A stretch of DNA of 64,000 nt, from IMG/VR virus record IMGVR_UViG_3300031987_000007, positions 1 to 64,000 of that record; one strand, given 5' to 3'. The DNA is from a virus. The notes beneath the pieces are model-generated. The model was not told the origin of the DNA, did no database searches, and was given only the letters and a program-made list of their open reading frames with translations. The translations under genes were made by a program, and so were the position numbers. Position 1 is the first letter of the stretch, and every line of letters starts with the position of its first letter. Below are positions 4,671-63,532 of the stretch, in pieces.

Positions 4671-5420
4671 TTACTGAATACCGAGTCGTTCGTTCAGACG
4701 TGAACGGGTGAGCGCCGGCAGTTGGATGACCTTGGCCGGGTCGGCAATGTGAGCGGGTAGGTAATCCGTCATCTCAGGCCAGCCATCACGGATCTGGCCG
4801 GTGGTATTGAACTGGTTCAAGTAGTCTTCAATTTCACCACGTACCTGATCACGGTCATTTAACCACTGTTTGTATGCGCGTTGACTATCCTTGTAAGTCT
4901 TGTACGGTTTGAAGTCCCGGGGAATAGTGAGCGTGTTCCAGCCCCCATCATTTAGCATAAGTGCAAACCGGACTCTGTTGTTTTCATCCTGATACTCCGG
5001 AAACGCAGAAGCGCCAGAGTGTGTAGTAACCGCCCCTATGTAGGGGATTTTCAGCTCATCGGCCATGGCCGTAGGTAAACAGAAGGTCATAACTGCCCCT
5101 TTGTCCCCATTCTCCAGTAAAACCTGTAGCCGGAAATCAGGCTCAGTGTTGAACGTAACGTGGTTTTTCAGATTCTCAGGAAGATCAGATCTGACTTTAA
5201 TAGCGTCCTGGGTCCGTTTGGCCAGTTGTTTCATGGCTCTCTGTTCAGCGGGGGCTTTGGCAGACACTGCCATCAAGGTACGTAAAGTCTCTTTCACAAA
5301 GGATGAGAACGTAGCACCTGCCGGAGACGGGTTAGCTTTTTCCCATTGCTTCATGACAGCACTGAGCATATCGAAGCGGTGTGTCTTGTTCAGGCGAATA
5401 GAACGAGGTTCATCGGACAT
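4671..5420 (-). CDS. Hypothetical protein, 249 aa
   Basis: Begins MSDEPRSIRLNKTHRFDMLSA. The N-terminal half is helical with Lys/Arg-rich segments (MKQLAKRTQDAIKVRSDL). The middle is beta-rich (FRLQVLLENGDKGAVMTFCL), and the end is helical. The layout loosely recalls the Nmad5-type domain seen in phages with modified bases, but I cannot confirm that from motifs. It follows dCMP deaminase across a 66-base gap holding a GGA-triloop hairpin. Confidence 0.7.
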   Translation of the reverse strand: MSDEPRSIRLNKTHRFDMLSAVMKQWEKANPSPAGATFSSFVKETLRTLMAVSAKAPAEQRAMKQLAKRTQDAIKVRSDLPENLKNHVTFNTEPDFRLQVLLENGDKGAVMTFCLPTAMADELKIPYIGAVTTHSGASAFPEYQDENNRVRFALMLNDGGWNTLTIPRDFKPYKTYKDSQRAYKQWLNDRDQVRGEIEDYLNQFNTTGQIRDGWPEMTDYLPAHIADPAKVIQLPALTRSRLNERLGIQ

Positions 5421-5456
5421 AACTATCCTATGTATGGTTGGTTAAAAGATTGGTTT

Positions 5457-5490
5457 GATTCACAGAAAAGCCCGGAGGGTTTCTGTTTAC
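5457..5490 (-). repeat. GGA-triloop hairpin, copy 1
   Basis: GATTCACAGA then AAGCCC-GGA-GGGTTT and CTGT. The inner 6-bp stem (one G-T pair) carries a GGA triloop on the plus (template) strand and the outer ACAG/CTGT also pair. It overlaps the last codon or so of dCMP deaminase. Member of a dispersed family with copies near 13,570, 18,387, 54,614 and 59,628. Confidence 0.6.
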
Positions 5491-6017
5491 AGGTTGCGTG
5501 CGGTGAATCCCGGTCCTCTGGGATCAATGAGCCTGGTATCTACTGTGGTTGGTTTAACGGCGTAGCGTTCTTCTTTAAAGACTTGGTGGATGGGTATGCC
5601 AATGGATTCCAGCAGTTTCACACCGTCATCATTTTTGTACGGTTGACGGTAATACACTGCTTTGAACCCTAAACCATGGATAGATTTGGCGCACTCGATA
5701 CAAGGGGCGTGAGACACAAATAATACAGAGCCAGCTACTGGGACACCCTGGCGAGCCATCTTGTCTAATGCGTTGCGCTCTGCATGTATGGTTTCTGGCT
5801 TGGTTCTACCAGTGTCATACCCTTTGGCGTCTTCTGGAAGATACTCACAGTTGTTAGGCATACCTGGTGGTGAACCATTCCAACCTACTGAGAGCATTCC
5901 TGTGGGTGTGACCACGATAGCCCCTACTTGAGCCCGGTTAGCCACAGATTGGGCAGCCGCGGCTTCTACCATCGACCAGTACAAGTTGTGGTACTTGGTT
6001 TTATGGGGATCAATCAT
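5487..6017 (-). CDS. dCMP deaminase (zinc cytidine/deoxycytidylate deaminase family)
   Basis: Converts dCMP to dUMP, the substrate of thymidylate synthase. The zinc site is clear: HAE at residues 78-80 (His ligand plus proton-shuttling Glu) and PCIEC at 105-109 (two Cys ligands). The length of 176 residues is normal for phage dCMP deaminases of the T4 type. The ATG overlaps the end of the glutaredoxin gene. With ThyX, dUTPase and RNR in the same window it supplies the phage dTTP pool. The motifs make the assignment strong. Confidence 0.92.
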   Translation of the reverse strand: MIDPHKTKYHNLYWSMVEAAAAQSVANRAQVGAIVVTPTGMLSVGWNGSPPGMPNNCEYLPEDAKGYDTGRTKPETIHAERNALDKMARQGVPVAGSVLFVSHAPCIECAKSIHGLGFKAVYYRQPYKNDDGVKLLESIGIPIHQVFKEERYAVKPTTVDTRLIDPRGPGFTARNL

Positions 6018-6253
6018 TGGGCGTCAGCAGTCTCCATGTACTGAACCAGGGCCTCATAACCACCGATGTGATCTGAGTTGTGGTAAACCTGTGGCACGGT
6101 CTTGAAACCGTTGGCTCTCATTTTTTCACGGGCGTCCGGGTTTTCATTGATATCAACCGTGTTGATAGCCAGTACCCCGTTTTCACGAAGTAGCTCAATG
6201 GCTTTGGTACAGAAGGGGCAACCCGGTTGGGTGTAAACGGTAAAGCTATTCAT
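6014..6253 (-). CDS. Glutaredoxin
   Basis: A 79-residue thioredoxin-fold protein with the dithiol active site CPFC (Cys12 and Cys15) after the first strand (FTVYTQPG), the cis-Pro loop TVPQVY and the GG(Y)EAL glutathione-binding turn. It probably reduces the phage ribonucleotide reductase, whose C-terminal redox pair needs a thiol partner. It lies in an overlapping operon with dCMP deaminase. Confidence 0.9.
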   Translation of the reverse strand: MNSFTVYTQPGCPFCTKAIELLRENGVLAINTVDINENPDAREKMRANGFKTVPQVYHNSDHIGGYEALVQYMETADAQ

Positions 6254-36228: not shown

Positions 36229-38505
36229 ATGGGCTGGTTCAGTAGCAAGAAAAAGACCTACGTATCTACGGAAGTGACCCGGTTGTACAAGGACAAAGAC
36301 ATTCCAGACATGCATCAGAAGAACGTCATTGATTCGGTCTTAAAGGACAAGAGACTGACCAACACCATCATCAACAACGCACTGAACAGTCAGACCCTGA
36401 AACTGGAACGGGCGTACCGTAAGGCCGCGAGAGGGGATTACTACTATGGGGCACCAAACCATAACATTCGGAATGCGGCCGATGGTAAGGACGTTCTCCA
36501 GAATATCCTGGGGATTGAACATAACGCACCAGTGACGTTGGCCTACTTCCACTTTGCGCCCCTGAATAATCTGCACTATGCCTGGCAGCAGTTAGTGAAT
36601 GACTATGGTTATGACGAGTTCTCAAATACCCTGACTATGAATGGGGTCTCTTACTGGGTTCATGACGTTGTTGGTCAAATCAACACCCAGGCCATTACCT
36701 CGGATGCAACAGCAGAAGAAGAACAGGAGTTGCTACCAGACGAAGGCACACTGGATAACTGGGATCGACACCCTCAAGACCGGTATACACCTTTCCGGAC
36801 AGGTGCTGAAAAGACGCCCATCTGGTTGTTCGGTGAAGATGTCCCAGACGGTGCTGAGGTTACCTTGGTCGACGCTGCCGGCGAAGCAACCACGTTGTTC
36901 ATAGACACCATTGGGTTTGACCGGGATCTGGAGTGCTTCCAAGCCAAGTACCATTACACCGTGGATGGCCAACGCAACCTGGGATACTTCACCTATGAGT
37001 ACAATCACGGCGAGTACCCAAGTCTGGATGCCGTTCATAACAAGACGGCGGTAGGTAAGGGCACCTTCTTCCCCTTGTTCCTGTTCCGAGCAAATGGACG
37101 AAACCTCACGGCAAGTTCTCAGCACGACACAGAGGCCTACAAGTCTTCGGTCAGGCTGGCTCGGAGTGTGGGACTGGATTACCAGTACCTGGGTGACATG
37201 GTGAACGAGAACGAAAGTGCTGATGACTTGGACCAGGCTGTATTGATGATGGGGGTGCCGGCCAAAACCAGTGATCCTGATGAGGCGGAATACCTGTTCC
37301 GGTTTTTTGACTGGCTCTACAAGGAGAGTGGCCGAACGTCTGCCCCAGCCGGTACCGGACTGTTTAATACCACCCGGCCTGGTAAATCCATTCAGATCAG
37401 TGAACGTGATTTTGATTGTACGCTGAGCTTCTCAAGCATTAATCGCCGGTATAAGTCAGGTGTTATAGGGGAAGTGGGTAGCTATACCTGCCAGGAGATC
37501 ACGCTCACTAAATACCGGACATTATCCCGCCGTGTATCAAGAGCGGTTGACGGGGATGTGGTGTATACAACGGAACACTTCCAAATTCCGTATGAGGTCT
37601 CTGGTTTGGAGTACCGGTACCAGGTAAATGCAGGAAACTATCAATCCCTGCTCGTTGATAGTTTGAAACTTCGTTACAACATTTACGGTAGCAAAGGTGT
37701 GGATGCCAATGTGGGTAACAGCAAACTGCTTGTTCCACTGGATTACTTCATTACCCGGTCTATGCGTTATGCCAAAAAAGATCGTTTGTATTACCGGTCT
37801 TTGCACTTTGTATTTAATGCCCGTGTAACCGAAACCGTTAAGTGGTATCAGCGAGGTGCTTTCCAGATTGTCCTGGTTATTGTCGCGGTTGTTGTCTCAT
37901 TTCTAATTGCTGGTTCTGATGGGGGTAGTTTAATAGGCGCTGCATTGTCGGCGGGTGCTTACGGCGCGGCAGCTATGTTGATGTTAACTGCCCTTATTGA
38001 AGCCGTGATTATTAATATGGTGGTTCAAGAAGCCATTACTTTTGTAATAAAAGAATTGGGTGCTGAGTTCGGAGCGGTCCTCGCGGTAGTCGCTTTTGTT
38101 GCGGCTATCTACGGCGCCAATACAGGTGCTTCGTGGAGTTCTTCTGCAATCCAAGCCAGTAATAACCTGGCCAGCGCCAGCATGTCCCAATATCAGAAAG
38201 ATCAGATGGCGGAATATAATGCCGAACAGCAGGCGTTTGATTTACTTAAATCAGAACAGTTAGAAGATTTAGAGGAAGCAGAAAACTTACTTCAACAATA
38301 CCCATTATTGGATGCGCGGTCGTTTATTGCTAAGGAACCTGTAATAATGCCTGGAGAAACGCCAGACTCTTTATATGAAAGAACCGTGCATGTGGGAAAC
38401 CCCGGCATTCTTCAATATGACTATATAGAATCGTATGTAGCATTAAACACACGATTACCGACTTTCAATGAGCTTGTAGGGGATACTTTCTATGGCCGGA
38501 TTTAA
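36229..38505 (+). CDS. Large virion protein with membrane-insertion region, 758 aa
   Basis: The first ~530 residues are mixed alpha/beta (start MGWFSSKKKTYVSTEVTRLY) and read like a phage structural protein. Residues about 543-634 hold several hydrophobic segments (FQIVLVIVAVVVSFLIA, LIGAALSAGAYGAAAMLMLT, FGAVLAVVAFVAAIYGA) able to cross a membrane. The end is acidic and helical. Located in the internal-protein/vRNAP block; a likely ejection or membrane-channel protein that helps inject vRNAP. Function inferred from topology. Confidence 0.75.
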   Translation: MGWFSSKKKTYVSTEVTRLYKDKDIPDMHQKNVIDSVLKDKRLTNTIINNALNSQTLKLERAYRKAARGDYYYGAPNHNIRNAADGKDVLQNILGIEHNAPVTLAYFHFAPLNNLHYAWQQLVNDYGYDEFSNTLTMNGVSYWVHDVVGQINTQAITSDATAEEEQELLPDEGTLDNWDRHPQDRYTPFRTGAEKTPIWLFGEDVPDGAEVTLVDAAGEATTLFIDTIGFDRDLECFQAKYHYTVDGQRNLGYFTYEYNHGEYPSLDAVHNKTAVGKGTFFPLFLFRANGRNLTASSQHDTEAYKSSVRLARSVGLDYQYLGDMVNENESADDLDQAVLMMGVPAKTSDPDEAEYLFRFFDWLYKESGRTSAPAGTGLFNTTRPGKSIQISERDFDCTLSFSSINRRYKSGVIGEVGSYTCQEITLTKYRTLSRRVSRAVDGDVVYTTEHFQIPYEVSGLEYRYQVNAGNYQSLLVDSLKLRYNIYGSKGVDANVGNSKLLVPLDYFITRSMRYAKKDRLYYRSLHFVFNARVTETVKWYQRGAFQIVLVIVAVVVSFLIAGSDGGSLIGAALSAGAYGAAAMLMLTALIEAVIINMVVQEAITFVIKELGAEFGAVLAVVAFVAAIYGANTGASWSSSAIQASNNLASASMSQYQKDQMAEYNAEQQAFDLLKSEQLEDLEEAENLLQQYPLLDARSFIAKEPVIMPGETPDSLYERTVHVGNPGILQYDYIESYVALNTRLPTFNELVGDTFYGRI

Positions 38506-58962: not shown

Positions 58963-59469
58963 TTAATTGGTATGCCCGTAGTTACCATGTAATTCCTGGC
59001 TTGCTTGGCAGTAGGCATAATGGGCTTCTTTAGGTGTGTCGAACTGCCCAAGGTATCGGGTCTTATTGGATACCTGAATTTGTGCAAACCATTTCTGATT
59101 GGTCTTGCTCCAGGAAACGCCCTTGAACCCTGATGTATTGTTCAAAGGTTTTCGTTGGTTGTGGGTGTTCTCGACATTGGTACACTCTCGTAAGTTTGAC
59201 CTGGTGTTATTCAACCCATCATGGTTTTTGTGATCAACCTGTTGAGATGTAGAGGTATCAAGAATGACTCGGTGCATTAGAATCATCCCAGGTTTTCCAT
59301 CAGCCTTTCGGGCTGTGCGGGCAGCGTATACAGTGCGTTTGGTGACTGCTGCAAACCAACTGTAGTCTTTAACTAAGTCAATGTCGGTAGCATCTATTCT
59401 TGCTATATATCCCCTGGTGAGTGGTACATAAGCAAACTTCCCTATTTTTCTGATTTTTCGTGGTCTCAT
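58963..59469 (-). CDS. HNH homing endonuclease with AP2 domain, 168 aa
   Basis: N-terminal beta part (FAYVPLTRGYIARIDATDID), then the HNH core MILMHRVIL...QQVDHKNHDGLNNTRSNLRE (His-Asp-His-Asn pattern) and a C-terminal AP2 module (TSGFKGVSWSKTNQKWFAQI, GQFDTPKEAHYAYCQ). A free-standing homing endonuclease. It lies between the HTH gene and a GC-rich structured region next to RNR. Confidence 0.9.
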   Translation of the reverse strand: MRPRKIRKIGKFAYVPLTRGYIARIDATDIDLVKDYSWFAAVTKRTVYAARTARKADGKPGMILMHRVILDTSTSQQVDHKNHDGLNNTRSNLRECTNVENTHNQRKPLNNTSGFKGVSWSKTNQKWFAQIQVSNKTRYLGQFDTPKEAHYAYCQASQELHGNYGHTN

Positions 59470-62268: not shown

Positions 62269-63450
62269 TTAATCAACAAGTGCTGCCCAACTTACGGGGA
62301 ACAACGGGCGGATAATGCTATCCCATTGTTCTGCCAGTTCTTGAATCTCAAGTTGAGCATGGGCATCGCTGCGTTGAATGTACGCATTGGCCCAGGCATA
62401 CAACGAACCCGTTACCCAGTAAGTCGTGAGCATGGATTGAGGCAGAACCATACGGGCTTGTTCAGGCGAATAGCCGTCTTGGATCATGTTCTCATATAGA
62501 TTCTTGGCGCTTTCAAGAAGCCCTTCGTAGGTATTACTTTTGCTCGGAACGCACCCTTTATACTTTAGTAGTACGTGTTCAGCCATCTTGATCTGTTCGT
62601 CCCGGCTGGCATCACTTTTCATTGAATTGGCCCGGTTACTGATAATCTCAACATTACCGGGAACGTAGTCCTTTGTTGAGTCTTTTCGATCAAATGATGG
62701 GCTGTCTGGTTGAATCTTCCCCTTACCAAGTGAGTAGTCTAACTTGACCCCTAGATATGGGCAGTACTCTGGAAAGTCGAAGGTATCAAAGTCGAGTGAC
62801 CATTCTCGCTTACCCTCCCTTTTTACCCTGGCTTCAGCATTTGAGAAACATGCTTTATAGGGATTACGATTCCTGTTGGTGTAGTGATATTTACATTCAT
62901 CAGAACAGTACTTCTTTTCTCTCCCACCACCCTGAGCACGAACGTTCTGCGTGGTTTCTTTACCGCACACCGGACAAAAGCCTTTAACAAATTCCGGGGC
63001 AGGTAGTTTTGTTGTGCCTGAGCCTTGCTTAATATTCCCTTCAGGGCGTGTGCGCCACTCATCAGGAATGTGAAACTCAGGCGTATCATCCACATACCTA
63101 CGAGAAACTTCATTGTAGGTGAAGCCAACGCAATGCTTGAAGCGCTGACGAGCCACAAAGATCGGGACGGTTTCCCGCATAGTGATCATGCAGTGGCTGA
63201 AGGGTGTCCAGTGGGTGGGCATATTCTTGGCCCACTTCAAAGCCTTTTCGACCTCTAAGGTAGATAAACCGCCTTCAACAAGGGGTTTAACTGTGTTGTC
63301 CCAATCAGACTTCATACAGCCACGGGCCAGGAATTGAATTAAGCCTTTGTCTTTTTCAGTCAGTTCATTGGACACAACGGAGAATGAAACTCTTGCGGCA
63401 TTTACGCACGTAAGGTCATTGCCCATGTGATCTAAGTATTCGGCTTTCAT
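62269..63450 (-). CDS. thyX: Flavin-dependent thymidylate synthase with an internal HNH domain
   Basis: Converts dUMP to dTMP using FAD and methylenetetrahydrofolate. Start MKAEYLDHMGNDLTCVNAAR at 63450 (AGAGG upstream). The ThyX signature is ARQRFKHCVGFTYNEVSRRY (residues 100-119), continuing EFHIPDEWRTRPEGNIKQGS; the C-terminal half resumes with YEGLLESAKNLYENMI, GYSPEQARMVLP and RSDAHAQLEIQ. Between residues about 145 and 303 an HNH-type domain is inserted in frame: zinc knuckles CPVC/CSDEC, then DFPEYCPYLGVKLDY, SFDRKDS, GNVEIISNRANSMK. Usual ThyX length is 220-260 residues, so the extra 160 residues equal the insert. The canonical RHR is RQR here. Confidence 0.9.
   Translation of the reverse strand: MKAEYLDHMGNDLTCVNAARVSFSVVSNELTEKDKGLIQFLARGCMKSDWDNTVKPLVEGGLSTLEVEKALKWAKNMPTHWTPFSHCMITMRETVPIFVARQRFKHCVGFTYNEVSRRYVDDTPEFHIPDEWRTRPEGNIKQGSGTTKLPAPEFVKGFCPVCGKETTQNVRAQGGGREKKYCSDECKYHYTNRNRNPYKACFSNAEARVKREGKREWSLDFDTFDFPEYCPYLGVKLDYSLGKGKIQPDSPSFDRKDSTKDYVPGNVEIISNRANSMKSDASRDEQIKMAEHVLLKYKGCVPSKSNTYEGLLESAKNLYENMIQDGYSPEQARMVLPQSMLTTYWVTGSLYAWANAYIQRSDAHAQLEIQELAEQWDSIIRPLFPVSWAALVD
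62542..63018 (-). mobile_element. In-frame HNH endonuclease insert within thyX
   Basis: About 160 codons inside thyX with no counterpart in ThyX enzymes. They read as a zinc-finger plus HNH homing-type nuclease domain (CP-C...CSDEC; CP-LG; DSPSFDRKDSTKDYVPGN; SNRANSMK). DNA is AT-richer than the flanking thyX. Neither intein splice residues nor stop codons are seen at the edges. Confidence 0.7.
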
Positions 63451-63532
63451 AAGTACCTCTGGATTATTTGCGATAGGCAAATAGGGATTGTGTAGAATCG
63501 CTGGAACAGTGATCTACAAGGTTGGTTTATTT

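Follow-up and report, generated by a model that had tools for sequence, protein, structure and literature searches.

A putative homing-type HNH endonuclease carried in frame within the flavin-dependent thymidylate synthase (ThyX) of a metagenome-derived virus

The thyX gene and its embedded nuclease

The window, i.e., the whole stretch of 64,000 nucleotides that was analysed (positions 1 to 64,000 of the IMG/VR virus record IMGVR_UViG_3300031987_000007), carries on its minus strand a thyX gene, an open reading frame with no stop across an N-terminal ThyX part, an insert and a C-terminal ThyX part. The likely start is the ATG at 63450 (MKAEYLDHMG, with AGAGG upstream), which yields a protein of 393 amino acids; the mechanical start, an upstream TTG at 63480, yields 403 amino acids, and residues are numbered in this 403-aa frame throughout. 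The following features were assigned:

62269..63450 (-): thyX, encoding a flavin-dependent thymidylate synthase that contains an HNH domain (393 aa, ATG start)
63019..63450 (-): ThyX N-terminal part, up to KQGS, with the VARQRFKHCVGFTYNEVSRRY flavin/dUMP motif (alignment to seven insert-free ThyX; AlphaFold2)
62989..63018 (-): N-terminal junction/linker GTTKLPAPEF (alignment; edge uncertain)
62554..62988 (-): inserted nuclease, with a zinc knuckle CPVC...CSDEC, then CPYLG...SPSFDRKDSTKDYVPGNV...NRANSMKSD and a C-terminal helix AEHVLLKYKG (phrog_3322; alignment; AlphaFold2)
62536..62553 (-): C-terminal junction/linker CVPSKS (alignment; pLDDT <50 at residues 309-313)
62269..62535 (-): ThyX C-terminal part, from NTYEGLL, with PEQARMVLPQ and YIQRSDAHAQLEIQ (Thy1 residues 306-396; alignment)

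The flanks of the insert are matched in two stretches by Pfam Thy1 (7.8e-33, 114.3 bits against a cut-off of 24.8) and also by NCBIfam thyX (TIGR02170, 90.1 bits against a cut-off of 87.9). Motif residues of the N-terminal part are conserved in the alignment to seven insert-free ThyX, and the flavin/dUMP-binding columns ARQ, KH, SRRY, AR, R(370) and Q-E are kept in this protein, in the six other fusions described below and in the insert-free relatives, the canonical RHR motif reading KHx in the phage subfamily of the window. With profile cut-offs passed and binding residues conserved on both sides of the insert, the gene is, as judged from its sequence, a thyX. Neither a ThyA nor a second ThyX was found in the 73.6-kb virus record. 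A sequence-only reading of the locus had described ThyX as complete up to KQGS (residues 151-154 in the present numbering) and again from NTYEGLL (from about residue 316), with neither stop nor frameshift at the junctions, and both statements hold.

Its proposal to fold the protein was followed with AlphaFold2 on the fused ThyX-HNH chain (62 sequences), and the ThyX core is predicted intact, mostly at pLDDT >90. The mean pLDDT is 82, with 69-98 in the N-terminal ThyX block (residues 11-150), 79-92 in the HNH core and <50 in two linkers (179-187 and 309-313). A pTM of 0.66 would fit two domains whose relative position is not fixed. In a Foldseek comparison the predicted model matches the ThyX of T. 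maritima over its whole length. A model of the insert alone, run without an alignment, was uninformative (pLDDT 38).

The nearest relatives of the gene, L005 and L006 from IMG/VR, are 70-74% identical and insert-free. Between KQGS and the next conserved AR the window protein has 187 amino acids, compared to 32-60 in 209 other distinct ThyX, and the guest therefore occupies a loop of naturally variable length, in agreement with the earlier placement of the insert in a ThyX loop. In L005 this loop has 37 amino acids, so that the net gain of the window gene is 150 residues, with nuclease making up 435 of the roughly 450 bases gained. Alignment with insert-free relatives places the beginning of the insertion between G155 and about V165 and its end between about G309 and N316; because the KQGS-AR loop is hypervariable in all ThyX, the insertion point cannot be fixed to the base. 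The alignment that had been suggested for mapping the exact edges thus brackets them and yields no base-exact junction, and the span first given for the insert (62542-63018) is a fair outer limit around the nuclease proper at about 62554-62988. The open frame of the insert is not due to chance, since its other two forward frames hold 6 and 22 stops.

Residues 188-303 are matched by the PHROG family phrog_3322, annotated “endonuclease” (E about 1e-23 to 8.7e-23). From its first cysteine to its last helix the guest aligns with free-standing HNH genes of the phages Bobbio and ventosus, and because this alignment runs end to end, the guest corresponds to a whole gene product that lacks a start and stop of its own. 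Across the nuclease family twelve columns do not vary, among them the Asp, Tyr and Asn of SPSFDRKDSTKDYVPGN, and all twelve are retained in the window, leaving the catalytic core complete. The first HNH histidine is replaced by Arg or Lys throughout the family. The insert had been read as a zinc knuckle followed by an HNH endonuclease, and the knuckle and the phrog_3322 match agree with this, but the catalytic histidine is replaced and the Asp/Tyr/Asn set is that of PacI. PacI (3ldy) is the best solved relative and shares with the window nuclease the pattern D-R-x6-Y-x3-N, although the sequence similarity, aligned over VDRSDSFEGYSPQN, is only weak (profile E 0.065). In PacI the metal is bound by Asp and Asn, with Tyr acting as general base (PMC4081073). 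That the guest belongs to a PacI-like group is a lead rather than a result. The guest is best read as a phage homing-type endonuclease of the beta-beta-alpha-metal/HNH superfamily with a putative PacI-like Asp-Tyr-Asn site.

Recurrence of the fusion and the histories of host and guest

An HNH lies in frame in this loop in at least seven distinct viral thyX genes, namely that of the window and those of L102, L235, L165, L300, L301 and L302. An HNH alignment search of IMG/VR led to L102 and L165, and a DNA pattern together with a further alignment search brought the total to seven; the window insert used as a lone query gave no match in IMG/VR, where an alignment query was required, and a later scan found no additional fusion among the matches listed. 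In all seven, two Thy1 stretches enclose a phrog_3322 match. Loop lengths are bimodal, with 32-60 amino acids in insert-free and 158-187 in fused ThyX, and 52-53 amino acids separate the HNH “MK” from the ThyX “AR” in the three fusions in which this was measured. No fused gene was recognised among isolated phages, where none of 50,697 records covered at least 80% of the fused queries (tblastn, with the limits used), except one for the full L165 query; with the L165 junction segment as query no record reached 80% coverage. Bacterial and archaeal genomes yielded HNH without ThyX only. Two loci that looked like fusions in the hit table (L315 and L390) were rejected as such, and in four others (L410, L416, L418 and L424) the HNH is free-standing. 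The 508-aa ThyX of the isolated Roseobacter phage RD-1410W1-01 (KU885989; L397:17962-19488, plus strand), a Foldseek match considered as an isolate with insert, is a different ThyX fusion, with a dNMP-kinase-like N-terminal extension instead and no HNH.

Host and guest tell different histories. The ThyX of L102 and L302 are 71% identical and their inserts 37%, whereas for the pairs L102/L235, L102/L300 and L235/L300 the ThyX are 57-61% identical and the inserts 70-72%. In the ThyX tree, in which branch support was assessed by SH-aLRT alone and many forks are open, the seven fusions are dispersed among insert-free relatives, which amounts to seven changes, at least five of them forced by starred branches. 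In the HNH tree, built on 99 columns only, the seven guests cluster (three changes; none of 500 shuffles was as low): L102, L235 and L300 form a starred clade (100/99), L165 and L301 pair (100/84), the support for L302 joining this pair is mixed, and the guest of the window stands alone. A single clade of all seven guests gave p = 0.261 in the AU test, and on these alignments a single origin is neither shown nor rejected. The GC3 of the insert differs from that of its flanks in L301 (0.43 vs 0.62) and in L235 (0.22 vs 0.36). Lateral movement into one site would predict such host-guest discord and such a shift in GC3; vertical descent with losses is disfavoured, because guests and hosts would then have to agree. 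Occurring sporadically at one conserved site and with a history unlike that of its host gene, the nuclease follows the pattern of homing endonucleases.

The guests of L102, L235 and L300 have diverged with a dN of 0.22-0.27 against a saturated dS, which indicates that they are under purifying selection and kept as protein in the host frame. This selection would also be expected if the gene were a bifunctional ThyX-HNH fusion, mainly inherited vertically, whose nuclease is useful to the phage and not a homing element, be it through breakdown of host DNA that feeds dNTP synthesis or by attacking thyX in rival phages. Such a reading, which fits part of the data equally well, draws further support from the location of thyX near genes of nucleotide metabolism and from a report of an intron endonuclease that attacks a competitor phage (PMC11620839). 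We nevertheless consider it unlikely, given the dispersal of the seven fusions among insert-free relatives, the contradiction between guest and host similarity, and the state of two guests: in L302 (2150-3259, plus strand) the embedded HNH has the catalytic Asp replaced by Asn (SVNRIN) and ML for MK within an intact ThyX frame, and the guest of L165 has no zinc knuckle, losses that a mobile element in decay would be expected to show. The HNH of L302 is probably inactive, and both guests look decayed, as they might in a homing cycle.

Splicing, separate initiation and assembly

The sequence-only reading had left room for an intron whose open reading frame stays in frame with both exons, and had named a known intron or intein as well as an assembly error among the findings that would count against it. 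At gathering thresholds no Rfam intron was detected in the whole window or at the six other fused loci, and at E up to 10 the window thyX gave only a chance snoRNA match and no intron. The same search scored the group I intron RF00028 at 100 bits (2.9e-26) in the thyX of a sister phage, L009, which served as positive control, and this argues against the intron option in all seven fusions. In L009 (5010-6578, plus strand) thyX is broken at VARQR/FKH by this intron (RF00028 at 5839-6100), which holds an HNH_3 open reading frame at 5397-6068. Host gene and the presence of a mobile element with an HNH are thus common to both cases, but L009 has an element of a spliced class at another site and with an HNH of another family. 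The earlier remark that intein splice residues are absent from the junctions is also borne out: no His-Asn stands at the C-edge of the window insert, and the HINT/intein models of Pfam and NCBIfam do not match the fused ThyX, so that no known intron or intein was recognised by any of the three databases.

An element that splices by an unrecognised mechanism, either a minimal in-frame intron filled by its open reading frame or an intein-like insert, might still be considered, as spliced elements are known to target thyX, with the group I intron in L009 and the inteins in two mycobacteriophage ThyX (PMC5050341), and as KSN-T at the C-edge faintly resembles the Asn-Thr at intein ends. We hold this to be improbable. 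Apart from the negative Rfam, Pfam and NCBIfam searches, the nuclease accounts for nearly the whole net gain and leaves no space in which either a ribozyme core or a HINT domain could fit; moreover the host frame is open through the insert in all seven cases, where the other frames hold 2-29 stops.

The nuclease could also be made separately, by internal initiation or by proteolysis, the in-frame fusion then being incidental. The window has a GTG at residue 171 with AAAGG about 10 bases upstream, and start codons precede the nuclease core in L300, L301 and L302. No in-frame start codon lies between KQGS and the core in the window, L102, L235 and L165, which disfavours separate initiation in these four, and a start at the GTG of the window would lose the first cysteine of the knuckle; taken together, this leaves separate production a slim chance. 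That the frame was created by an assembly or sequencing error is hardly credible: all seven fusions do come from metagenome-derived virus records, but arrangement and frame recur in seven separate IMG/VR records whose sequences have diverged, which contradicts the assembly error envisaged earlier.

Proposed mechanism, known systems and neighbouring endonuclease genes

Homing endonucleases in conserved genes are thought to require an intron or an intein in order to spare the host gene. The present data rather point to a homing endonuclease that probably invaded thyX in frame, at a loop that tolerates it, and was retained as a ThyX-HNH fusion, with splicing neither of RNA nor of protein. Two of the options raised by the sequence-only reading, a homing nuclease and an unspliced fusion, are hence favoured jointly by the seven in-frame inserts, the intact motifs and the conflict between host and guest. 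A whole phage endonuclease, minus its own start and stop codons, would have landed in the length-variable loop that follows the invariant KQGS, the loop allowing the ThyX core to fold around the guest, and a single ThyX-HNH polypeptide would be translated in the cell and stay unspliced. The nuclease would then recognise insert-free thyX near the conserved KQGS codons and nick or cut it, and recombination during co-infection would copy the nuclease into the cut gene. Both the ThyX and the nuclease domain would be active. The broader proposal, of a class of mobile elements that home as DNA and never splice, appears evenly balanced to us: a nuclease domain would insert in frame into a loop where a metabolic enzyme tolerates it, work as a part of that enzyme and be exchanged between divergent thyX at one site, the ThyX oligomer possibly presenting multiple copies of the nuclease.

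Several known systems share some of these traits. The ShiLan domain is an HNH with zinc fingers embedded in a mycobacteriophage DNA methylase gene, with no detectable intron or intein, an open host frame and a disjunct distribution that was taken as homing, but there the HNH is out of frame, has its own GTG start and leaves an in-frame peptide that is not a nuclease (PMC11855218). The window does not hold such a hidden HNH: its nuclease lies in the host frame, as part of the enzyme chain and in ThyX as host, and the other frames carry stops. The lone LAGLIDADG domains in phage F-cluster methylases, e.g., of Taj, are also homing-type nucleases within an enzyme with no detectable splicing domain; they belong to another nuclease family and are reported to be mostly inherited vertically, with one exception, whereas the thyX host and guest trees conflict (PMC9957025; PMC11855218). 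In rps3 of fungal mitochondria a LAGLIDADG homing endonuclease is fused in frame to a protein-coding gene; nuclease and organisms differ, and the thyX guest is internal, with conserved host sequence on both sides (PMC7902536). Finally, mobE in nrdA of Aeh1 and mobA in gene 60 of T4 are free-standing phage HNH genes that invaded a still-working gene of nucleotide or DNA metabolism, but each divides its host gene so that separate polypeptides are made, whereas thyX is one continuous open reading frame (PMC2988022). In the open-access literature we came across no description of an HNH within ThyX. What appears to be new here is a homing-type nuclease that lies in frame in ThyX, apparently unspliced, recurrent and laterally mobile. 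It suggests that a length-variable loop can spare the host gene as an intron or intein does, and that a selfish nuclease can persist as a normal domain of a protein. The case offers a testable path by which a parasite could become a fused domain, and the seven natural fusions together with their insert-free relatives provide material for measuring the burden on the enzyme, the site targeted and the transfer.

Free-standing HNH genes of the same family adjoin insert-free thyX in L307, L311, L312, L314, L315, L319 and L356, with gaps of -21 to +47 bp; these loci come in part from searches that favoured thyX and thus give no estimate of frequency. In Streptomyces phage Targaryen a match overlaps an annotated HNH gene and the adjacent thyX. 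These arrangements suggest a possible path from a homing gene that flanks thyX to an embedded one. In many phages free-standing relatives lie beside genes for ribonucleotide reductase (RNR), DNA polymerase, exonuclease or phosphoesterase. On the contig of the fused L165 a second HNH gene from this family stands on its own 3.3 kb downstream of thyX (L193:9399-9851, plus strand), and in CRP-7 (MK613349; L097, record positions 36482-36955) a same-family HNH lies between two pieces annotated as adenosylcobalamin-dependent RNR.

In the window a free-standing AP2/HNH_3 endonuclease gene (58963-59469, minus strand) is found downstream of nrdJ, with an AP2 match at 8.5e-11 and an HNH_3 score of 21.9 bits, just below the cut-off. 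The NrdJ encoded in L009 (6681-9836, plus strand; 1051 aa) contains an apparent intein-like insert (CFDEAEQFV...VVTGNC) that is absent from the NrdJ of the window.
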